This document shows positions 6,555 to 20,138 of a stretch of DNA of 64,000 nucleotides, one piece after another. Below the pieces are notes generated by a model. That model saw nothing but the letters and a program-made list of their open reading frames with translations. It ran no database searches and was not told the DNA's origin. Numbering within the stretch: the stretch's first letter is position 1; each line of letters starts with the position of its first letter. Both the position numbers and the translations under genes were made by a program. The DNA comes from Corynebacterium bovis DSM 20582 = CIP 54.80 (GTDB taxonomy: Bacteria > Actinomycetota > Actinomycetes > Mycobacteriales > Mycobacteriaceae). The stretch lies in the NCBI RefSeq assembly GCF_030408615.1, contig NZ_CP047187.1:806001-870000 (forward strand). The letters are read 5' to 3'.

Positions 6555-6949
6555 GTGGGTGATGTCCTGTGGGAGACGTTCGTGGTGTTCTTAAAAACTG
6601 AATATCTCTGCCGTTTTATATTAGTTCCGGCCAAGATGAAGATGAGAATAACATGACGGAAAGATTTTTGGCGGATTGTCGAGACGCAATTCCGTCACCG
6701 GGGTCGGTGGGCCCGTCCGTACCATGTCCGACCACCCCCGACCGTGCCGGACCGTGACCGGGAACACGGGTGGAGGGCGGCGGGGCAGTGGTCGTGAAGC
6801 ACAACTGGGGGTGGCCGTTTTCTCAGGGTGCTGTCCCGGTCCGGCGTCCGTCGTCCCCCGTCCCGGCCCCGGCCCCGGCGGGCGACCCGCACCCGGCCTG
6901 TCCGCACCTGACCCGCCCCCCGGCCCCGTCGCACCCGCCCCGCCCGGGC
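6555..6949. other. 395-bp gap with an A+T-rich island upstream of the Rrf2 gene
   Basis: Positions 6585-6680 are much richer in A+T than anything nearby and should contain the promoter of the Rrf2 gene. An imperfect inverted repeat (AACT-GA-ATAT at 6597-6606 and ATATTAGTT at 6619-6627) is a candidate autoregulatory operator. The remainder, up to the pabB stop, is G+C-rich with no gene visible. Confidence 0.45.
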
Positions 6950-8485
6950 TCAGCGGTGCCGGACCGCCCCGCCGGTGATCGTGGAGCTCTTCGCGGTGAC
7001 CTCGTCCCACTCCGCCGCCGGCGTGGAGTCCGCCGTGATCCCGCCGCCGACCCCGAGGCGGACCCGGCCGCCGCCGGTCCACTCGCACGTCCGGATCGCC
7101 ACGGCGAGTTCGAGGACCCCGCCGGCGGAGAACCCCGCGCAGCCGCAGAACACCCCCCGGCTCTCCGGCTCCCACTCCCGGAGGAACCGCCGGGCGGCGA
7201 GCTTCGGGGTGCCCGTCACCGACGCCGGGGGGAAGGTGGTCTCGACGAGCCGCGCGTGCGTGACCTCCCGCGGGAGCGTCGCCCGGACCGTGGAGACGAG
7301 GTGCCACACGCCCGGGGCGGGGACGACGGTGAGGAGGTCGGGCACCGTCACCCCGCCGGTGACCGCGACCGTGCCGAGGTCGTGGCGGACGAGGTCGACG
7401 ATCATGATGTTCTCCGCGACGTCCTTGACGCTCGCCAGGAGGTCGGCCGGGTCCCGGTCGCGGGGGAGCGTGCCCTTGATCGGCATCTCCACGACCTCGT
7501 CGCCGTGGCGGGACAGGTAGACCTCGGGGCTGAACGACGTCACGGCGACCGCGCACCCGGTCGTCCCGTGCCCGGCGAGGAAGACCGCGCGGGCGGGGCG
7601 GTGGTGGGCGACGGTGTCCGCGAACACCGCCGCGGCGGCGGCGTGGTCGTCCGCGCCGTCGTCGACCCGGCCGTGGAAGAACCCGGCGACGCACGCCTGG
7701 TAGACCTCGCCGGCGGCGATGGCCTCGAGGCAGTCCGTCACGCCCCGGGTGTGGCGGTCCCGGTCGGGGCCGCGCCAGCGGACCGTCGGGACGGGCGGGA
7801 AGCCGGGGGTCGGGGCCGTGGCGTCGGCGGGGGAGCCCCCGGGGTCGGTGGGGGAGCTGCCACCGGTCGCGCCCCCGGCGTCGGCGGTGCCGGCGACGGC
7901 GGCGTCCAGGGCCGCGTCGAAGGCTGCGTCGGGGGCAGCGTCCAGGGCCGCGTCGACGGTGGAGGGGTCGTCGTCGACCCCGGGGGTGTCCGTCGTCCGC
8001 AGCCACCACACCCCGTCTCCGTCGAGCCACAGGCTCGCCCGGGCGGCCCCGCCCCAGTGTGCGGCGAGGGGCGCCCCCGCCGCGTCACGGACCCCGCCGT
8101 CGTCCGCCGCGGCGTCCGGGTAGCGTCGCACCCCGAACCAGAGCGGCGCCGACCCGGCACCCGACCCGGCACCCGACCCGGCACCGTCACCGCCCCCCGG
8201 GAACGCCCCGTCCGGCCCGGCGGCCGCGGCGTCCCGGGCGTCGAGCGCCGGGACGAGGACCGCCGCGTGCCCGGCCCACGCCCCGACGGCGAGGGCCGGC
8301 AGCGGCGCACCGACGCGGAGCGCCCGGGCGGTGAGCACCCGGAACACCCGCAGCGCCTCGTCCACCGGGTCGGGTCGCCCCGCCGCCGCGGCGTCGGGAC
8401 CGGTCGGTCGCCCGGTCAGACGACGGAAGGACCCGCCCGCGAGACGGCGGACGGGGGCGGGACCGGGTGAGAGCTCCGACGGCAT
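6950..8485 (-). CDS. pabB: Aminodeoxychorismate synthase component I
   Basis: Chorismate-binding enzyme that makes 4-amino-4-deoxychorismate from chorismate and ammonia for folate synthesis. The catalytic C-terminal half has PIKGT, whose Lys is diagnostic of aminodeoxychorismate synthase (anthranilate synthase has Ala). It also has ENIMIVDLVRHDLG, the TGTPKL loop and the closing GGGITADSTPAAEWDE. The first 250 of 511 residues are poorly conserved and contain Asp/Ala and Gly/Pro-rich stretches. No glutaminase domain is fused, so a separate PabA is needed. ATG 8485 follows TACTGT by 7 nt (leaderless). It is divergent from metG, as Rv1005c/Rv1007c are near neighbours in M. tuberculosis. Confidence 0.88.
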   Translation of the reverse strand: MPSELSPGPAPVRRLAGGSFRRLTGRPTGPDAAAAGRPDPVDEALRVFRVLTARALRVGAPLPALAVGAWAGHAAVLVPALDARDAAAAGPDGAFPGGGDGAGSGAGSGAGSAPLWFGVRRYPDAAADDGGVRDAAGAPLAAHWGGAARASLWLDGDGVWWLRTTDTPGVDDDPSTVDAALDAAPDAAFDAALDAAVAGTADAGGATGGSSPTDPGGSPADATAPTPGFPPVPTVRWRGPDRDRHTRGVTDCLEAIAAGEVYQACVAGFFHGRVDDGADDHAAAAAVFADTVAHHRPARAVFLAGHGTTGCAVAVTSFSPEVYLSRHGDEVVEMPIKGTLPRDRDPADLLASVKDVAENIMIVDLVRHDLGTVAVTGGVTVPDLLTVVPAPGVWHLVSTVRATLPREVTHARLVETTFPPASVTGTPKLAARRFLREWEPESRGVFCGCAGFSAGGVLELAVAIRTCEWTGGGRVRLGVGGGITADSTPAAEWDEVTAKSSTITGGAVRHR

Positions 8486-8554: not shown

Positions 8555-10396
8555 ATGTCGCAACACGTGCTCACGTCCGTGGCCTGGCCCTACGCCAACG
8601 GCCCCCGCCACATCGGTCACGTCGCGGGATTCGGCGTCCCCTCCGACGTCTTCGCCCGCTACCAGCGGATGATCGGCAACAACGTGCTCATGGTGTCGGG
8701 GACGGACGAGCACGGCACCCCGCTGCTCGTCCAGGCGGAGAAGGAGGGCATCCCGGTCCAGGAGCTCTGCGACCGGTACAACCGGATCATCGTCGAGGAC
8801 CTCGTCGGCCTCGGCCTGTCCTACGACCTGTTCACCCGGACGACGACGCGCAACCACTACGCCGTCGTCCAGGAGCTCTTCCGCGGGCTCAACGACAACG
8901 GCTACATGATCCGTCAGACCACCACCGGCGCGATCAGCCCGACGACCGGCCGCACCCTGCCGGACCGGTACATCGAGGGCACGTGCCCCATCTGCGGTGC
9001 GACGGACGCGCGTGGCGACCAGTGCGACACGTGCGGCAACCAGCTGGATCCGTCGGACCTCATCGACCCCCGGTCGAAGATCAACGGCGAGACCCCCGAG
9101 TTCGTCGAGACCGAGCACTTCATGCTCGACCTCCCGGCCCTCGCGGACGCCCTCGGCGAGTGGCTCCACGGCCGCGAGGACTGGCGGCCGAACGTCCTCA
9201 AGTTCTCCCTCAACCTGCTCAAGGACCTGCGCCCCCGCGCGATGAGCCGGGACATCGACTGGGGGGTGCCGATCCCGATCGAGGGCTGGCAGGACAACAA
9301 CGCGAAGAAGCTCTACGTGTGGTTCGACGCGGTCGTCGGCTACCTCTCCGCCTCCATCGAGTGGGCGTGGCGCTCCGGCGACCCCGAGGCGTGGCGCGCG
9401 TGGTGGACGGACCCCGACGCCGTGTCCTACTACTTCATGGGCAAGGACAACATCACGTTCCACTCCCAGATCTGGCCCGGTGAGCTGCTCGGCTACCGCG
9501 GGCTCGGCGCGCACGGCGGCGAGGCCGGCGAGTTCGGCGAGCTCGACCTGCCGACCGAGGTCGTCTCCTCCGAGTTCCTCACGATGTCCGGGTCGAAGTT
9601 CTCCTCCTCCAAGGGCGTCGTCATCTACGTGCGGGACTTCCTCGAGGAGTTCGGCCCGGACGCGCTGCGCTACTTCATCTCCGTCGCCGGCCCCGAGACG
9701 ACGGACACGGACTTCACGTGGGACGAGTTCGTCCGCCGCGTCAACCAGGAGCTCGCCAACGAGTGGGGCAACCTCGTCAACCGCACCGTGTCGATGGCCC
9801 ACAAGAACTTCGGGGAGATCCCGCAGCCGGGGGCGTTCACGGACGGGGACCGGGAGCTTCTCGACGCCGCCCTCGCCGCGTACGACACGGTCGGCACGTG
9901 CCTCGGGGAGTGCAGGTTCAAGGCCGGCATGACCGAGGCGATGCGGCTCGTCGCGCGCGCGAACCAGTACATCGCCGCCGAGGAGCCGTGGAAGCTGGCG
10001 AAGGACCCGGACCGGCGCGAGCGGCTGGCGACCGTGCTCTACGTCGCCCTCCAGGTCGTCGCCGACGCGAACACCATGCTCACCCCGTACCTGCCGTTCA
10101 GTGCGCAGACGGTCTTCGAGACCCTCGGCGGGACCGGCGAGTGGGCCGCCCAGCCGACCGTCCGGGAGGTCACCGACGACTCGCCGCGGACGCCGGTGGG
10201 CGTCGGCGTCCCCGAGGCCGGGCGGAGCTACCCGATCATCACCGGGGACTACACGCGCCAGCAGGCCCGGTGGGGGCGCACGGAGCTCGTGCCCGGCACC
10301 GCGCTGACGAAGCCGTCGCCGCTGTTCCGCAAGCTCGACCCGGAGCTCGCCGAGACCGGGCCGTCCTGGGCGCCCGTCACGCCCGCCGGGGAGTGA
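8555..10396 (+). CDS. metG: Methionyl-tRNA synthetase
   Basis: Class I synthetase charging tRNA-Met. The start ATG 8555 gives [22 protein letters not shown], with the HIGH nucleotide-binding motif. The zinc-knuckle region has two CxxC pairs (CPICGA and CDTCGN near residues 146-165), followed by the FSSSKG (KMSKS-type) loop and [19 protein letters not shown] leading into the anticodon-binding helical domain. At 613 residues it is full length and has no C-terminal tRNA-binding EMAP domain. A longer in-frame start at 8528 precedes the -10 element and is not used. Confidence 0.97.
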
Positions 10397-10495
10397 CCGG
10401 GCGGCGGTGACGCGGGGGGCACGGGGGCGCACGCGGCGGCTGCCGCGACGGCGGGGGACGTGACCCGGCGGGGGCCGGGGCCCGGCGGGGGCCGG

Positions 10496-10529
10496 GGCCG
10501 GGGAGGGTCAGGGGCCGGGGAGGGTCAGG
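10496..10529. repeat. 17-bp tandem duplication over the HAD gene stop codon
   Basis: GGCCGGGGAGGGTCAGG occurs twice head to tail (10496-10512 and 10513-10529). The stop codon of the minus-strand HAD gene (10525-10527) lies in one copy. Confidence 0.85.
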
Positions 10530-11193
10530 GGACCTGCCGGAGTCCCGCCGGCGGGGTGAGGACGCGGTGGGCGGCGTCGACCCCCTCCCACCGGTGGGCG
10601 TCCCAGCCGCGCCGGGCGGCGACGGTGAGCGCGGCCTCGTCCGACCCGAAGTACACGACCGCCGCCGGGTCGAAGCCGGCGAGGGCGACCTGCCGGTCGA
10701 ACCGGCGGAACGCGCCCTGGTGCGGCGTGGTGAAGCGCAGCTCCACGGAGAACGACGTCACGGCCGCCGCCCGGCCCCAGTCCGCCGCCCGGACCCGGTC
10801 GACGACCGGCTGCGGGGCGTCGGCGAGGACCGCGTACGGGCGGCCCGTCGCGCGGAGGTGCATGAGCAGGCGCAGCGTCGCGGGGTCCGGGGTGGAGCAC
10901 CGGGCGGTGTCGTCGGCGATGAGGTCCTCGACGAGCGCCGGGTCCGGCTCGACGCCGGCGGAGCGCAGGACCGCCGTCGCGAAGTCCCGCGGCCCCATCG
11001 ACAGGCAGTAGCTCTCCCGGTAGCGGGCGTACGACGCGGCGAGGGCGGCGGCCGTCGCGGCGTCCGGCCCGGGCCGGTGGCGGGCGACGACCGTGGCCAG
11101 CGTCACCGCCGGGTCCGGGGCCGGGACGAGGACCCCCGGCAGGTCGAAGACGATGAGGGGGGTGGCGGACGGGCTGACGGGTGACGGTCCCAT
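10525..11193 (-). CDS. HAD-superfamily hydrolase-like protein with altered motif I
   Basis: A 222-residue HAD-fold protein starting MGPSPVSPSATPLIVFDLPGVLVP. Motif I in phosphatases is DxD; here the nucleophile Asp is present but the second, general acid/base Asp is Pro (DLPGV). A motif II-like Ser/Thr region (YAVLADAP), a Lys-containing or Arg-rich cap, and motif IV (VVYFGSDEAALTVAARRGW) remain. The altered motif suggests loss of phosphatase chemistry or a dehalogenase-like or non-catalytic role; substrate unknown. ATG 11193 is chosen for its GAGGAG site 6 nt upstream and because the upstream in-frame extension is Pro/Thr/Arg filler. Confidence 0.75.
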   Translation of the reverse strand: MGPSPVSPSATPLIVFDLPGVLVPAPDPAVTLATVVARHRPGPDAATAAALAASYARYRESYCLSMGPRDFATAVLRSAGVEPDPALVEDLIADDTARCSTPDPATLRLLMHLRATGRPYAVLADAPQPVVDRVRAADWGRAAAVTSFSVELRFTTPHQGAFRRFDRQVALAGFDPAAVVYFGSDEAALTVAARRGWDAHRWEGVDAAHRVLTPPAGLRQVP

Positions 11194-12323: not shown

Positions 12324-13941
<1,618 letters not shown>

Positions 13942-13974: not shown

Positions 13975-14149
13975 GCTCCGCACCGGGGGGACATCGCATC
14001 GGGGGTGCGCCGGGGACATCACGCCGGAAGCCACTGCATCGGGGGCACACCGCGCCGGGGGCGACGGTGCCGGGGGCGTGACGTCGCTGAGAGGCGCGTC
14101 GAACCCCCACCCCCGCCGGGTCCGTGTGCCCCGCGCAGCCCGGGTGCTC

Positions 14150-14155
14150 TACGGT
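14150..14155 (+). promoter_or_regulatory. -10 hexamer TACGGT for the acyltransferase gene
   Basis: TACGGT lies 6 nt before ATG 14162, giving a leaderless arrangement. Confidence 0.45.
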
Positions 14156-14161
14156 GAGACC

Positions 14162-14725
14162 ATGATCCGTCGCCTCGTGGCCCGTGTCTTCGGGCGCTGC
14201 AGCCGGTGGACCCTCAGCACCCGCCCCGCCCCCGACGGCGCGTGCGTGCTGGTGGGGGCACCGCACACGTCGAACTGGGACTTCATCCTCATGCTCGCCA
14301 TCGCCTGGCGGCTGGACATCCACGTCCACTGGATGGGCAAGGACAGCCTGTTCCGGGGCTGGATGCGGCCCCTCATGCTCGCCCTCGGCGGCATCCCCGT
14401 CGACCGCGACAACCCCGGTGGTCTCATCGACGACGTCCTCGGGCGCATCCGCACCGACGACCACTTCGCCCTCGTCATCACCCCCGACGGCACCCGGTCC
14501 GGCCACAGCCGCTGGAAGTCCGGCTTCTACCGGATCGCCCGCGAGGCCGACCTGCCGGTCATCCTCGGGTACGTCGACCGCACGACGATGACCACCGGCC
14601 TCGGCCCGACCCTCCGCCTCACCGGGGACGTCGCCGCCGACATGGACCGCATCCGCGACTTCTACTCCGACAAGGCCGGGTTCACCCCCGCCCACCGGGT
14701 CGAGCCGCGCCTCCGGGAGGAGTGA
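14162..14725 (+). CDS. PlsC-like 1-acylglycerol-3-phosphate acyltransferase family protein
   Basis: The 187-residue protein has the acyltransferase H(x4)D catalytic pair in GAPHTSNWD (about residues 37-45). It also has GGIPVDRDN, and PDGTRS as the substrate-phosphate loop. Such short forms act on membrane lysophospholipids or related acceptors; the actual acceptor is unknown. The start is fixed by the TACGGT element 6 nt upstream; the frame upstream of it is not conserved-looking. It is the first gene of the block that separates rpfB from rsmA. Confidence 0.82.
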   Translation: MIRRLVARVFGRCSRWTLSTRPAPDGACVLVGAPHTSNWDFILMLAIAWRLDIHVHWMGKDSLFRGWMRPLMLALGGIPVDRDNPGGLIDDVLGRIRTDDHFALVITPDGTRSGHSRWKSGFYRIAREADLPVILGYVDRTTMTTGLGPTLRLTGDVAADMDRIRDFYSDKAGFTPAHRVEPRLREE

Positions 14726-14745
14726 CGCGCCTCCGGGAGGAGTGA
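14706..14745. repeat. 20-bp tandem duplication across the acyltransferase stop codon
   Basis: The unit CGCGCCTCCGGGAGGAGTGA is present twice without mismatch (14706-14725, 14726-14745). The first copy encodes the last residues and the stop. Each copy contains the short palindrome CCTCC-G-GGAGG. Confidence 0.9.
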
Positions 14746-14784
14746 CGCGCGGGGCGCCGGGGGAGGGGGACCGCCCGGCGCCGC

Positions 14785-16620
14785 TCAGCCGAAGGTGAAC
14801 GAGTACAGTGTCACGCCCTCGGGGACGTCGAGGCGCAGCGTCCCCTCCGTCACCGTCGGCCCGGAGACGAGGTCCACGCTCCCGGGCGTCGACGGGACCG
14901 GGATGTTCCGCGTGGAGCCGTCGGGCAGCGTCGTCCGCAGGGTCCCGGACCCGGACGCGACGACCTGCACGATCCGACCCCGGACCCCGAGCAGCAGCCC
15001 GGCGGGGCCGGTGGGCGTCACCGACTGCCCGTCGATCCTCCAGTCCCCGGTGAGGGTGTACCGGGGTCGACGCGGTTCGGGCACGTCGGTGGGGAAGCTG
15101 TGCGTGCCTGCGGTGTGCCCGTGGTCGGTGTGGAACCGGGACCGCTCCGCGCCGAGGTAGGTCTCCGGGTTGCGGCCCCCGGTCAGGCGGTCCGCGCCGC
15201 CGGTGCCGGCCGTGCCGGATGTGCCGGCCCCGGCCTCGGATGTGCCGGTCGCCCCGCCGCGGGCGGCGTCGTCACCGTCGGCACCCCCGGGTTCGACGGG
15301 CGCGGGCAGCCGCGCCCCCGGGTCCGCCTCCCGGATCAGCGCCCGGACCAGGCGTTCCGTCTCCGCGTACGCGCCCTCGCCCTCGTGGACCTGGCGGACC
15401 GTGCCGGCGTGGTCGACGAGGTAGTGGGCCGGCCAGTACCGGTTGCCGTACGCCCGCCACGTCGCGAAGCTGTTGTCCTGGGCGACCGGGTAGGTGATCC
15501 CGGCGTCCCGGGCGGCCGCGCGGACGTTCCCCGCCTCCTGCTCGAAGGGGTACTCCGGGGCGTGGACGCCGACGACCGTCAGCCCGTGGGCCCGGTACCG
15601 GTCGCTGAGGGCGGTGAGGTGGGTGTTCGCCCGCTGGCAGTTGATGCACGCGTACGCCCAGAAGTCGACGAGGGTCACGTGCGCCGGCCCCGTGCCGGGG
15701 GTGCCGCCGCCCGGGGAGCGCGGGTCGACGGGGGCGTCGGTGTTGAACCAGCCCTCGAGGCCGCGGAACGCGGGCGCGGGGCCGCAGTCACGCAGTTCAT
15801 CGGGGGAGGCGCTGCGGCAGGCGTCGAGCGATCCCCCCTCCGCTCCACCCTGCCCGGGGTCCCCGTCCGCACCGTGACCGCCGGTGACCCGGCCGAGCGC
15901 GCGACGGACGCCGGCGTCGTCGGTGAAGGCCCGCTGCACCCCGGCGGTCCAGTCCGGGAGTGCCCGCTGGAGCCGGGCGGGGGCGTCCGCGGCGAGCGCG
16001 ACGGCGAGGAGCAGGACGACCGCCCCGGCGACCCGCGTCACCGCGGTCCGGTGCCGGCGCACGACCGCCGCCCGCTGGCCGATGCGGTTGCCGGCCAGGG
16101 CGAAGAACAGCAGCGGGGAGCAGGCGCCGACGGCGAAGGCCACGGTGAGTGCCACCGTCCCCCACCCGATGTCGCCGGTCGCCCCGGCGACGGTCACGGC
16201 GGCGAGGACGGGCCCGGCGCACGGCACGTACACCGCGCCGAGGGCGAGGCCGACGCCGAAGCCGCCCGCGCCGCCGCCGGTGCGGGTGCGGCGGTCGATC
16301 CACCCGGGCATCCGCAGCCGGCTGAACGGCCGTTCGAGCAGCTCACCGACGGCCGGGACGATCATGCCCACGCCGACGGCGACGAGCAGGGCGATGCCCA
16401 CCCACCGCAGGACCCCGCCGGGCAGGCCGAGCGCGGAGAGGACGACGGTGCCGAGGAGGGTGATCGCCGCGAAACTCACCGCGATGCCGAGGGCCACGGC
16501 GAAGGGGCGGCGTCGGTCACCGCCGGAGACGACGAGCACCACCGGGAGGACCGGGAGGATGCAGGGGGAGACGCCGGTGACGGCGCCGCCGATGAGGCCG
16601 ATGAGCACAAGTTCCCACAT
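14785..16620 (-). CDS. dipZ: DipZ: CcdA-type thiol transporter fused to extracytoplasmic thioredoxin
   Basis: This 611-residue protein moves reducing equivalents across the membrane to an external thioredoxin domain. The N-terminal CcdA domain (about 1-230) has six hydrophobic helices and the paired cysteines in SPCILPVLP and YVPCAGPVLA. After a variable loop with two more Cys (LDACRSASPDELRDCG) comes the thioredoxin-like domain with WAYACINCQRANTH, i.e. a CINC active site. A Gly/Thr/Ala-rich linker and a beta-rich C-terminal domain of about 140 residues follow, as in M. tuberculosis DipZ (Rv2874). ATG 16620 has AAAGGA at ideal spacing; an in-frame ATG 16677 with GGAGG would add 19 residues. 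It is divergent from the Met/His lipoprotein gene. Confidence 0.92.
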   Translation of the reverse strand: MWELVLIGLIGGAVTGVSPCILPVLPVVLVVSGGDRRRPFAVALGIAVSFAAITLLGTVVLSALGLPGGVLRWVGIALLVAVGVGMIVPAVGELLERPFSRLRMPGWIDRRTRTGGGAGGFGVGLALGAVYVPCAGPVLAAVTVAGATGDIGWGTVALTVAFAVGACSPLLFFALAGNRIGQRAAVVRRHRTAVTRVAGAVVLLLAVALAADAPARLQRALPDWTAGVQRAFTDDAGVRRALGRVTGGHGADGDPGQGGAEGGSLDACRSASPDELRDCGPAPAFRGLEGWFNTDAPVDPRSPGGGTPGTGPAHVTLVDFWAYACINCQRANTHLTALSDRYRAHGLTVVGVHAPEYPFEQEAGNVRAAARDAGITYPVAQDNSFATWRAYGNRYWPAHYLVDHAGTVRQVHEGEGAYAETERLVRALIREADPGARLPAPVEPGGADGDDAARGGATGTSEAGAGTSGTAGTGGADRLTGGRNPETYLGAERSRFHTDHGHTAGTHSFPTDVPEPRRPRYTLTGDWRIDGQSVTPTGPAGLLLGVRGRIVQVVASGSGTLRTTLPDGSTRNIPVPSTPGSVDLVSGPTVTEGTLRLDVPEGVTLYSFTFG

Positions 16621-16966
16621 GGGGGTCCTTTCGTCGGGGGGGGGGCAGGTGGCGGGGCCCGGTGCGTCCGGGCTCATGAGGTCCTCCGGGGCGGGGGCGC
16701 ACCCGGATTGGCCGCCGCGGACCGGGGGCGGGGGACGGGGGAGGGGCACGGGGCCCGGGTGGAGGGCCCGGGGAGGGCCAGGACGGAGGGCCCGGGACAG
16801 GGGACGACGCCGCCTCCCCGCCGCGCGACGCCCCCGCACTCCGCCGGCGTGTCCGCCCCCGTCCGGGGGTGGCTCCGTGATCCCCGGCAATCCGCCCGCC
16901 CCGTGGGTCCGGAGGACAGGGTGAGGCGCGCCGACGGGGCGTCGCCCACGAACGAAGGAGTAGCCC
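16621..16966. other. Divergent gap between dipZ and the lipoprotein gene
   Basis: 346 bp of very G+C-rich sequence with repeated GAGGGCCCGGG elements around 16750-16800. It must hold the promoters of both genes. I looked for a SigK-type promoter (CCATCC plus a CGAAT-like -10 in M. tuberculosis) and could not identify a convincing pair. Confidence 0.4.
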
Positions 16967-17530
16967 ATGCGTGTTCCCCAGATCCGTCGCGGTGCGTCCA
17001 CCCCCGGAACCCGGCCCGCCGGCGGAGGTGACGCCGGGGCGGGCGCGTCCCGCACCGGCCGGTCGTCGGTGCGGCGGAGCGCGGCGGTCGCCGGCGTCGT
17101 CCTCCTCGGGTCCGCGGTGCTCGCGGCGTGCGGGGACGACGGGACCAGCCCGGCGTCCGTCACGGAGCCGGTGACGTCGACGTCGACCCCGGCCCCGGCC
17201 CCGGCGAAGTCGTCGGCGTCGACCCCGGCCCCGGCGGGCATGACCGGCATGGACCACATGGACGGGAAGGACCACATGGACGGCATGACCGGGATGGACG
17301 GCAAGGACCACATGGATCACATGGACGGCATGACCGGCATGGACGGCAAGGACCACATGGACGGCATGACGGGCAAGGACGGCAAGGACCACATGGACGG
17401 CATGACGGGCAAGGACGGCAAGAACGGCATGGATCACATGGACGGCATGGACCACGGCGACCACATGAGCGGCACGGACCACATGAACGGCATGCCCGCG
17501 GGGGATCCGGCCGCGGCCGATTCGCACTAG
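16967..17530 (+). CDS. Met/His/Asp-repeat lipoprotein, probable metal binder
   Basis: A 187-residue secreted lipoprotein. After an unusually long Arg/Ser-rich N-region comes a hydrophobic helix ending in the lipobox LAAC (Cys55). A Thr/Pro/Ala linker leads to residues 91-176, built almost entirely from variants of [12 protein letters not shown] and containing about 20 Met, 10 His, many Asp and no Cys. Met/His clusters of this kind bind Cu(I)/Cu(II) in periplasmic copper proteins, so a copper (or Ag/Ni) buffer on the outer face of the membrane is my inference; no known family is recognised. ATG 16967 has a strong GAAGGAG 6 nt upstream. It is divergent from dipZ and 39 nt ahead of the sigma factor gene. 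Confidence 0.85.
17237..17494 (+). repeat. In-frame coding repeats in the Met/His lipoprotein
   Basis: About eight degenerate copies of a unit coding for GMTG(M/K)DGKDHMD are arranged in tandem within the gene. DNA-level similarity between copies is high (for example GACGGCAAGGACCACATGGA recurs), so the region is prone to expansion and contraction. Confidence 0.85.
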
Positions 17531-17555
17531 GGTTCCCCTGTGCGCCGCGGTGCCA

Positions 17556-17561
17556 TAGGAT
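17556..17561 (+). promoter_or_regulatory. -10 hexamer TAGGAT for the ECF sigma gene
   Basis: TAGGAT is 8 nt before GTG 17570. It resembles the housekeeping -10, suggesting basal leaderless transcription separate from any read-through from the lipoprotein gene. Confidence 0.5.
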
Positions 17562-17569
17562 CGGCCGGT

Positions 17570-18178
17570 GTGCTGACTCCCGAGCGTCCTGCCGTCGACG
17601 CGCTGCTCACGCGGGTCGCCTCGGGCGACCGGGCGGCCTTCGCGGACCTCTACGACGCCCTGGCCCCCCAGGCGAACGGCGTCGCCTGCACCGTCCTGCG
17701 TGACCGCACCCTCGCGGAGGAGGTCGTGCAGGAGGTCTTCATCGAGGTGTGGCGCACCGCCCCGCGGTACGACGCCGGCCGGGGCGGCGCCCGCGGCTGG
17801 GTCCTCCGCCTGACCCGGCTCCGGGCGATCGACCGCCTCCGGTCCCACCTCGCGACGCTCGACCGCGACGACCGGGAGGCCGCCCTCCAGCGGGTCGCGT
17901 CACCCCTGTCCGTCGAGGACGAGGTCGTCCGCGACATCGACGGCGCGCACGTCCGTGACGCGCTCGACGCGCTCGGCGAACCGCACCGGACCGCCGTCCG
18001 CCTCGCGTTCTTCGCCGGCCTCACCCACAGCGAACTGGCCGCGGCGACCGGCGTCCCCCTCGGCACCGCGAAGACCCGGGTCCGGGACGGTCTCCGTAAA
18101 CTGAGGGCCGTCATCGGCACCGGTGAGCCGGCATCCCGCCCGACCCCCGGAAAGGAGGGCACCCGTGGCACGCTCTGA
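17570..18178 (+). CDS. sigK: ECF RNA polymerase sigma factor, SigK-like
   Basis: A 202-residue group IV sigma factor. Region 2 (about residues 12-85) contains [35 protein letters not shown] and [18 protein letters not shown]. Region 4 (about 130-180) contains [46 protein letters not shown]. The pairing with an RskA-like protein and the neighbouring dipZ supports SigK over other ECF classes. GTG 17570 follows TAGGAT; an in-frame start at 17540 would place the -10 inside the gene. The 3' end overlaps the anti-sigma gene by 14 nt, implying translational coupling. Confidence 0.88.
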
Positions 18179-19034
18179 CAGCACCCGCCCCGACGAGGGC
18201 GCGTACGACGCCGCCGTCGACGCCGACCCCGCGCTCGCGGACGTCGAGATCCCCCTGCTCACCACCGTCACCCCCGTCCCGGTGCGCCCCGGGGCGCGGG
18301 AGGAGCTGCTCGCGGCCGTCGCCGACGTCGACCGGGACGCGCCGGTCGCGGGGTCCGGGGAGGGGGACGACGGCACCCTCCCCCCGGCCGTGACGCCGGG
18401 GGAGACGACGGCCGGGGACCCGGTCGCACGTCCCGGGGAGGCGACGGTCCACCCTCTCGTCCGCCCGCGGCGCGGGTCCGGTCGCGCGGGCCGGCCCCGG
18501 TGGGGCGCGCTCGCGGCGGCGGTCGTGCTGCTCGCCGCCGTCGGTGGGGCGGGTGCGCTCGTCGTCGGCGGCGGTGACCGGGCGCCGGGGGAGGGGGACG
18601 TCGTCGCCCGCCCGTCGGGCACCCCGTCGCCGGCCACCGCGGTCGACGCCGCACCCGGTGCCGGGGAGCACGCCGGTCACCCCGCCGGCGGGCAGGGCCC
18701 GGAGGAGATGCACGCCATCATGGGTGCGACGGACGCGCGCAGCGCGGAGCTCGACGCCTCGGGCGCGGAGCTCGACGTCGTCGTGTCCGGGGCGATGGGC
18801 AAGGGCGGGGCGATGGTCGACGGCCGGCCCGCCCTCGACGACGGCATGGGCGCCCAGGTGTGGTCGGTGGGGTCCGACGGACGGGCCCGCTCCGCCGGCG
18901 TCATCGACCAGGCGCCGCACGACGGGGTGTGGATGCCCCTGCCCGGGGACACCGTGCAGGTCGTCCTCACCGTCGAGCCGGCCGCCGGTAGTCCCGCGCC
19001 GACGGGGCCGGTCCTCGCCCGCGCGACACTCTGA
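18165..19034 (+). CDS. rskA: RskA-like membrane anti-sigma factor
   Basis: A 289-residue single-pass protein. The acidic cytoplasmic part (1-110) has no HxxxCxxC zinc motif. One membrane helix at about 112-136 is followed by an extracytoplasmic RskA-type domain ending in VVLTVEPAAGSPAPTGPVLA, very close to the C-terminal signature of anti-sigma-K factors. RskA holds SigK inactive until it is proteolysed. GTG 18165 has AAAGGAGG 7 nt upstream, inside the sigma gene, and its frame overlaps that gene. The external domain contains several Met (MHAIMGA, GAMGKGGAM, DDGMGAQV), possibly relevant to metal or oxidant sensing. Confidence 0.85.
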   Translation: MARSDSTRPDEGAYDAAVDADPALADVEIPLLTTVTPVPVRPGAREELLAAVADVDRDAPVAGSGEGDDGTLPPAVTPGETTAGDPVARPGEATVHPLVRPRRGSGRAGRPRWGALAAAVVLLAAVGGAGALVVGGGDRAPGEGDVVARPSGTPSPATAVDAAPGAGEHAGHPAGGQGPEEMHAIMGATDARSAELDASGAELDVVVSGAMGKGGAMVDGRPALDDGMGAQVWSVGSDGRARSAGVIDQAPHDGVWMPLPGDTVQVVLTVEPAAGSPAPTGPVLARATL

Positions 19035-19139: not shown

Positions 19140-20138
19140 GTGACAGATTCCGCGACCGCCGACCAGGGGCACCCGGACCACCCGGAGGGACGTGACGGCC
19201 GCCACGGACGCCGCCCGGTCCGTCTCCTCGGACCCGCGGAGATCCGGGCCCTCGCCACCGAGCTCGACGTGACACCGACGAAGAAGCTGGGGCAGAACTT
19301 CGTCGTCGACCCGAACACCGTCCGCCGCATCGTCGCCGCGGCCGGCGTCGGCCCGGACGACCACGTGATGGAGGTCGGCCCGGGCCTCGGCTCCCTCACC
19401 CTCGCCGTGCTCGACGTCGGCGCGGACGTGACGGCCGTCGAGATCGACGAGCGCCTCGCCGGCCGCCTGCCCGCGACCGTCGCCGACCGCGCCCCCGACC
19501 ACGTCGGGAACCTCCGTACGGTCGTGGCGGACGCCCTCCGCGTCACCCGCGCGGACCTCGCGGCCGCCGGGGCCCCCGCCCCGACGGCCCTCGTCGCGAA
19601 CCTCCCGTACAACGTGTCCGTGCCCGTGCTGCTCCACATCCTCGAGGAGTTCCCGACGGTCACCCGCGTGCTCGTCATGGTCCAGCTCGAGGTCGCCGAC
19701 CGGCTCGCCGCCGCGCCGGGCTCGAAGATCTACGGGGTGCCGAGCGTCAAGGCCGGGTTCCACGGCGCCGTGTCCAAGGCCGGGACCGTGGGGACGAACG
19801 TGTTCTGGCCGGCGCCGAAGGTCGACTCCGGGCTCGTGCGTATCGACCGGTACACCGACGACGACCGCCCGTGGCCGGACGACGCCCGGCTGCGGCGGAC
19901 GGTCTTCGACCTCACCGACGCCGCCTTCCTCCAGCGCCGGAAGACCCTCCGCGCGGCGTTGAGCCGGTACTTCGGGTCCGGCCCCGCCGCGGAGGCCGCG
20001 CTGACCGCCGCGGGCATCGCCCCCGGTGAACGCGGGGAGCGGCTGTCCACGCGCGACTTCGTGCGCCTCGCCACCGCCGTCAACGACACCGTGGCGGCCG
20101 GCGGGACGCTCCCCCCGGGGTCGGAGGGGACCCGGTGA
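19140..20138 (+). CDS. rsmA: 16S rRNA (adenine1518/1519-N6)-dimethyltransferase
   Basis: KsgA/RsmA dimethylates A1518 and A1519 late in 30S maturation. Typical motifs are [11 protein letters not shown], the SAM motif [20 protein letters not shown], the catalytic NLPYN, and [18 protein letters not shown] in the C-terminal domain. At 332 residues it is slightly longer than usual owing to a charged His/Gly/Arg N-terminal extension of about 30 residues. The start is fixed by the TATCCT element. The stop overlaps the ispE start (GTGA), so the two are coupled, as in M. tuberculosis. Confidence 0.96.

Follow-up and report, generated by a model that had tools for sequence, protein, structure and literature searches.

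A 64,000-nucleotide (nt) window of the Corynebacterium bovis DSM 20582 = CIP 54.80 genome (NZ_CP047187.1, positions 806,001 to 870,000 of the forward strand) carries a compact block of four genes, encoding the membrane protein DipZ, a predicted lipoprotein rich in methionine (Met), a SigK-like extracytoplasmic function (ECF) sigma factor and an RskA/CskE-like anti-sigma factor. We tentatively read this block, judging the chance of being right to be nearly even, as a one-locus regulon that senses methionine-directed oxidants on the outer side of the membrane and answers with a sacrificial Met-rich lipoprotein and DipZ. The observations behind this reading are the order of the genes, their linkage across genomes, matching sites upstream of dipZ and of the lipoprotein gene, the presence of a Met-rich lipoprotein gene before sigK, a set of Met and histidine (His) residues in the anti-sigma ectodomain, and the loss of a cysteine (Cys) pair from SigK. 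The components, in window coordinates, are:

14785-16620, minus strand: dipZ (open reading frame (ORF) reading, Pfam)
16685-16710, minus strand: SigK-type promoter-like site towards dipZ, CAATCC-N13-CCCCGGA (pattern search; counterpart at 36/45 loci)
16888-16913, plus strand: SigK-type promoter-like site towards lipoprotein-sigK-rskA, CAATCC-N13-GTCCGGA (pattern search; counterpart at 40/45 loci)
16954-16960, plus strand: ribosome-binding-like GAAGGAG, 6 nt 5' of the ATG at 16967 (sequence reading)
16967-17530, plus strand: gene for the predicted lipoprotein with a Met/His/aspartate (Asp) repeat (ORF reading)
17540-18178, plus strand: sigK-like ECF sigma factor gene (ORF reading, Pfam, NCBIfam)
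18165-19034, plus strand: rskA/cskE-like anti-sigma factor gene, PF10099 (ORF reading, Pfam)
18687-19031, plus strand: extracytoplasmic domain of RskA with M182, H183, M186, M211, M217, M228, H252, W256 and M257 (alignments; numbering from 18165)

Read directly from the ORFs, the four genes are immediate neighbours in the interval between rpfB and rsmA, as the preliminary description had reported and as coordinates and domain matches bear out; dipZ points away from the other three, the lipoprotein stop is separated from the sigK start by 9 nt, and sigK and rskA overlap by 14 nt. That the genes form one unit, rather than a local coincidence, was also borne out in a survey of 201 genomes of the same genus, where a SigK match (140 bits or more) occurs in 52 and a DipZ match in 54. 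Both are present in 50 genomes, SigK only in 2, DipZ only in 4 and neither in 145 (Fisher p 7e-40, not corrected for kinship), so that roughly one in four of the Corynebacterium genomes surveyed carries the core genes of the block. We then considered 72 neighbourhoods, which take in every one of the 52 SigK genomes, with the window standing for its own genome and G055 represented twice, as well as 20 weaker or broken matches. Among the 54 loci with both SigK and RskA matches, the window included, dipZ is adjacent in 49; in two of the remaining five (L041, L048) it lies on another contig, and in the other three (L067, L100, L102) there is none. Once dipZ, sigK, rskA and the block's own antisense frames are set aside, every neighbour family is confined to at most 12/52 loci, which indicates that the block stays together while its surroundings change. 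Partial states are also seen: dipZ has been lost with the rest of the block retained in G126 and G079, SigK carries a stop with its neighbours still present in G165, only a partial dipZ is found in G127, and in G084 and G030 dipZ adjoins more distant SigK-like genes. One genome, G055, holds two copies of the block (L055, L052) 36 kb apart on one contig, one of them with a frameshifted lipoprotein gene and a stop-bearing dipZ, and the locus of G084 (L076, around 9028-11000) is rearranged, with the Met-rich lipoprotein gene divergent from a dipZ-sigK-rskA run and a distant SigK (35%).

The same block shows a recurrent pair of promoter-like sites. Mycobacterial SigK recognizes a CCAATCC/CCATCC ... 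CCGAA/CCGTA-type consensus, and judged against it there is a SigK-type site upstream of both dipZ and the lipoprotein gene; a shared motif upstream of 16620 and 16967, which had been anticipated, was thus found. Across loci, the form CAATCC-N13/14-[CG]TCCG[TAG]A occurs twice, divergently, between the two genes. In 45 of the 49 complete loci (L058, L060, L087 and L096, with partial DipZ matches, were left out), an exact CAATCC with at least 6/7 positions of the -10 element is present towards the lipoprotein gene in 40, towards dipZ in 36 and in both directions in 31, and the same intergenic segments read backwards gave 0 and 0 sites. In the 2.65-Mb genome of the window, the pattern CAATCCN{12,15}YCCGDA, which was designed with knowledge of the two sites in the window, has 3 matches, namely both sites of the locus and one inside a gene, and its reversed control has 0. 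A stricter pattern, applied to 38 of the 52 SigK genomes, matched 35 times across 27 genomes; 31 of these matches fall at this locus, and the control has 1. Since the matches concentrate here, the predicted regulon would essentially be this block, with off-locus sites that depart from the patterns escaping such a search. The promoter-like sites are probably the promoters used by SigK. Between the two sites, the intergenic region also carries short G-rich repeats (16719-16809).

The predicted lipoprotein has a LAAC lipobox followed by a low-complexity arm of Met, Asp, glycine, His and lysine; an alternative start is a GTG at 17069. Its mature part of 133 amino acids (aa) contains 20 Met, 11 His and 24 Asp, and its gene includes 5.7 copies of a 45-bp repeat unit (17237-17494; Tandem Repeats Finder). 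Pfam returned nothing for it beyond a sub-threshold Collagen match, and a protein database search gave a single partial match (89% over 57%) that, like the window's own proteins, is listed with no source. By position, on the other hand, a small lipobox-bearing gene lies 5' of sigK in 53/53 SigK-RskA loci with upstream sequence, which answers the co-occurrence check suggested for this type of lipoprotein; one copy (L055) is frameshifted, counted here as present but broken, and another (L104, G154) is Asp-rich with 8% Met. This count excludes L041, which lies at a contig end and has no upstream sequence, and includes L060 and L092, whose lipoproteins were missed or mispicked by the automatic rule and were identified separately; L059 (G047) stands outside it: RskA gave no match there, although an RskA-like frame comes after sigK, and its 17 kb contain no lipoprotein rich in Met. 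At L048 (G171) the Met-rich gene is ~600 nt upstream of sigK with a second small lipoprotein gene intervening; the pair (~6882-7820, sigK-oriented) are tandem small lipoproteins, one Met-rich, the other acidic and Met-poor.

In 50 copies (L055, L060 and L092 left out), Met makes up 8-29% of the mature lipoprotein, with a median of 18%, while length ranges from 25 aa (L037, L096) to 133 aa among intact copies and repeat number also varies widely. All 27 of the 56 lipobox ORFs in the fetched stretches that reach at least 7% Met are this lipoprotein gene; the other 29 lie below that value, the highest (6.3%) being a fasciclin lipoprotein of G030 with a Met-rich linker. The lipoprotein is thus conserved by place and composition, and too divergent to cluster. 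Met is its conserved feature: the Met/His/Asp repeat noted earlier describes the window strain well, but at least three His are found in only 9/53 copies, for which reason the label 'Met/His' should read 'Met'. MxM spacing is common in Cu(I) sites, and in these lipoproteins it is depleted, with 5 seen versus 83 expected (59-111, 200 within-protein shuffles), as is MxxM (46 versus 68), and Met residues 4 to 6 positions apart are over-represented; these values are a hint only, as the copies are related.

Methionine also marks the anti-sigma factor. RskA of the window matches RskA_C (PF10099) with 52.1 bits (gathering threshold 29.4), and AlphaFold2 models its ectodomain confidently as a β-sandwich preceded by a helix, with blocks of residues 181-289 at a predicted local distance difference test score of 95-98; the N-terminal part is predicted, with modest confidence, to form a helix over residues 44-57. 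In 54 RskA orthologues, counts for which include one empty row (L077, unreadable in frame), M196, H197, M200, M225, M231, M242, H266 and M271, which correspond to 182, 183, 186, 211, 217, 228, 252 and 257 in the numbering from 18165, are each conserved in 48 to 53 rows. In an alignment of 52 Met-type RskA proteins, consisting of the window protein and 51 of 113 database matches picked by similarity to it, the six Met, H252 and W256 are present in 52/52 and H183 in 49/52. The same residue is found in none of 30 other RskA proteins (L059, L076 and L205 left out, as they are told apart) at M182, M211, H252, W256 and M257, in 1 each at H183 and M228, in 3 at M217 and in 5 at M186. Accordingly, Met-type ectodomains hold a mean of 8.9 Met per 112 residues (lowest 6), versus 2.7 (highest 8) in the others; 10, 7 and 11 Met, but not the same His, are found at three divergent loci that fall outside the main group, those of G270 (from another genus), G047 and G084. 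Judging from strand order, one end of the modelled ectodomain would hold the helix Met/His residues and M211, and the opposite end M228 and H252. Because this set is near-invariant, an envelope signal is plausible, and of the earlier proposal that RskA senses an envelope redox or copper signal that part stands.

A Cys-type redox signal does not fare as well. The window's sigma factor matches the Pfam sigma-70 r2 and r4 domains and reaches 184.4 bits against NF007228, the NCBIfam SigK model (next model 116), and, as this is below the cut-off of 226, we file it as SigK-like. In M. tuberculosis SigK, Cys133 and Cys183 matter for signalling (PMC7509140). The window protein does not have this pair, and 53/54 Met-type SigK proteins are without Cys in region 4 (last 60 aligned residues), the remaining one having a single Cys; nor does any Cys column in RskA reach 12/54 rows. 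Two Cys are found in 10/12 SigK proteins encoded beside fasciclin genes in the same genus, a pair 50 residues apart in those of G030, G270 and the other-genus loci L197, L201, L204 and L208, and a third Cys besides the pair in L203 and L207, also of other genera. Met-rich lipoprotein and Cys loss are separable features: G270 has a Met-rich lipoprotein and a CCATCC-N13-CTCCGAA site yet keeps the Cys pair, and a SigK beside a fasciclin lipoprotein in an Ilumatobacteraceae metagenome-assembled genome (MAG; L138) has no Cys.

DipZ itself combines the Pfam domains DsbD_TM, AhpC-TSA and Thioredoxin_10 and has the build of its family, with a CcdA/DsbD-type membrane domain, an extracytoplasmic thioredoxin-like domain with CINC and a C-terminal Thioredoxin_10 domain. 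In 52 DipZ stretches, C[IVL][NH]C is present in 52, and the membrane cysteine motifs PC[AV]GP and PC[IVL] in 50 and 47. A longer dipZ frame starting at 17313 was rejected, as the translation from 16620 already holds the whole DsbD domain.

Outside the block, the flanking genes are:

12619-13941: rpfB
14078-14725: acyltransferase gene
19140-20138: rsmA

In 14/15 other genomes of the genus that were inspected, rpfB directly adjoins rsmA, and the block and the acyltransferase gene are therefore interposed in the window genome. A 20-base unit, cctccgggaggagtgacgcg, present in two tandem copies (14710-14749), spans the acyltransferase stop codon.

Put together, oxidation of the Met/His set of the ectodomain, or binding of a ligand to it, would change or release the anti-sigma factor, upon which SigK would transcribe dipZ and lipoprotein-sigK-rskA; the lipoprotein would then absorb oxidant equivalents, and DipZ would supply reducing equivalents with which thiols in the envelope could be repaired. 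Several observations weigh against this reading. In the two families tested (MsrB and PF00174), we found no exported Met-sulfoxide reductase, which makes a sacrificial Met sink more likely than a recycled one: there is one MsrB match in 199/201 genomes, the copy of the window genome starting without a signal peptide, and the MsrP family (PF00174) has members in 4/52 SigK genomes but none in the window genome, so that an MsrP partner is lacking in the latter. The lipoprotein of G154 is poor in Met, as described above, and the window lipoprotein does not match the MXKDX model (TIGR02953, cut-off 41), to which five of nine Corynebacterium-group relatives are also unmatched, one passing with 42.0 and the others scoring 37.6, 28.6 and 12.5. 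The two conserved His of RskA are no less compatible with metal binding than with the sensing of oxidants, the co-occurrence counts ignore relatedness, and the strict promoter pattern is unmatched in 11 of the 38 genomes, that of the window included. Light makes singlet oxygen, and for this reason light induction in M. kansasii is a weak pointer to an oxidant signal. Counting against the oxidant reading, dipZ did not respond to light in that species, although mpk83 and mpk70 were induced (PMC9861118).

The closest competitor, which we consider possible though rather unlikely, is the sensing of Cu(I) or Ag(I), where the Met/His ectodomain would bind the metal and free SigK, the Met-rich lipoprotein would buffer metal at the surface and DipZ would repair thiols. 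The conservation of H183, H252 and Trp256 beside six Met and the 11 His of the window strain's repeat lipoprotein speak for it, but His is scarce or missing in most of the lipoproteins, MxM and MxxM are both under-represented, no widely recurring neighbour family is seen at the locus (neighbours were not annotated individually), and G270 and G084, whose types are also Met-rich, do not keep the same His. The metal-buffering role first proposed for the lipoprotein thus loses ground, as it leaned on His residues of the window strain that are rare in its relatives and is at odds with the MxM depletion, and we regard oxidants as more likely than copper or silver to be the signal.

It is improbable, to our judgement, that the lipoprotein acts mainly as a co-sensor or sheath of the anti-sigma factor, first in its own operon, rather than as a bulk sink or buffer: its constant place 5' of sigK-rskA and the tiny 25-aa copies would fit such a role, but the wide spread in mature size and repeat number better suits a bulk one. 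Less probable still is a Cys-type switch like that of SigK in M. tuberculosis, in which DipZ would set the disulfide state; DipZ is linked and the Cys pair matters in the mycobacterial protein (PMC7509140), but with region 4 of 53/54 SigK proteins free of Cys and no conserved Cys column in RskA, such a switch is unlikely here. As for chance neighbours in one strain, named at the outset as an outcome that would overturn the proposal, the interposition between rpfB and rsmA could hint at it, but gene-order comparison refutes it, the same block recurring in some 50 genomes whose flanks differ, and we give it practically no weight.

In mycobacteria, the known cassette is mpt83-sigK-rskA (PMC7509140), and the block resembles it and the SigK regulon in having a lipoprotein gene by sigK-rskA and, as predicted, dipZ in the regulon, upstream SigK sites and a tiny regulon (PMC7509140, PMC10540498). 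It differs in that the slot holds a Met-rich lipoprotein without a fasciclin domain, SigK lacks the Cys pair, the ectodomain is of the Met/His type, and the predicted regulon lies at one locus whereas the mycobacterial one lies at two. The lipoprotein is no fasciclin protein, as the preliminary description had said, and the fasciclin domain (PF02469) is absent from the window genome and all 52 SigK genomes, so this is not an mpt83 cassette. Fasciclin domains do occur in 27/201 genomes: in 12 they stand beside a second, more distant type of SigK-like gene, and in 15 (e.g., G169, G018, G061), a second group with higher PF02469 scores, they lie away from the listed SigK-like matches. The fasciclin lipoproteins of G030 and L138, which share SigK-like and RskA genes and a Met-bearing lipoprotein arm with the block but keep the fasciclin domain, have Met-rich linkers (7 Met in 45 residues and 10 in 59), while other linkers read 0 to 3 Met. 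They look like intermediates from the MPT83 type to the Met-rich type; the Met-rich lipoprotein appears to fill the mpt83 slot and may derive from the Met-rich arm of a fasciclin lipoprotein.

Part of the arrangement has been described before. The C. pseudotuberculosis island PiCp2 was listed in 2011 as containing tetA-cskE-sigK-dipZ (PMC3078919), and thus likewise has the anti-sigma factor, sigK and dipZ side by side, so the initial impression that this version was undescribed does not hold for the trio; it appears to hold for the lipoprotein, as the island table has none between sigK and dipZ and the word 'methionine' is absent from the accessible text (PMC3078919). Outside this lineage, BcrX of Brucella melitensis is a Met-rich MXKDX protein beside an ECF/anti-sigma pair, induced by hypochlorous acid (PMC8315932). 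It is the closest experimentally tested precedent and speaks for the oxidant reading, as does the one lipoprotein relative above the MXKDX cut-off. BcrS/AbcS-BcrXQP and the MrpX system of Azospira share with the block an ECF/anti-sigma pair next to which stand a membrane redox partner and an exported protein that is rich in Met and partly built of MXKDX repeats, but differ in belonging to ECF16, in a peptide without a stated lipid anchor and in having MsrPQ in place of DipZ (PMC8315932). Our literature search, outside which most subscription papers fall, returned no account of the Met-rich lipoprotein or of a Met/His anti-sigma sensor, nothing that links a Met-rich lipoprotein to an anti-sigma factor in Corynebacterium or to copper in Actinobacteria, nothing relevant for the mycobacterial SigK consensus, and, for cskE, PMC3078919 as the only relevant paper. 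While the sigK-cskE-dipZ trio is therefore already known, the Met-rich lipoprotein and the Met/His sensor appear, within the accessible literature, to be new.

The case illustrates that an orphan, unalignable lipoprotein can be recognized by place and composition, as the protein search gave 1 partial match and gene order 52 further copies. SigK/RskA controls major antigens of tuberculosis-complex bacteria (PMC10540498), yet its signal is stated to be unknown (PMC7509140) and the stimuli of SigK to 'remain obscure' (PMC9861118). In a broader and more speculative proposal, which we think unlikely as a whole, the anti-sigma factor would be a thioether sensor that reads Met oxidation (or Cu+/Ag+) through its six Met and two His and drives a surface Met sponge; this would be the ancestral logic of SigK, Met-armed fasciclin lipoproteins would be its relics, and the M. 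tuberculosis MPT70/83-DipZ regulon would be derived, with the same chemistry as its signal. A methionine theme runs through both the sensor and the output of the predicted one-locus regulon and, because it marks the two alike, the question of the SigK signal lends itself to tests with a reporter and with purified domains; if our reading is true, the block would offer a testable lead on the signal of SigK in M. tuberculosis.

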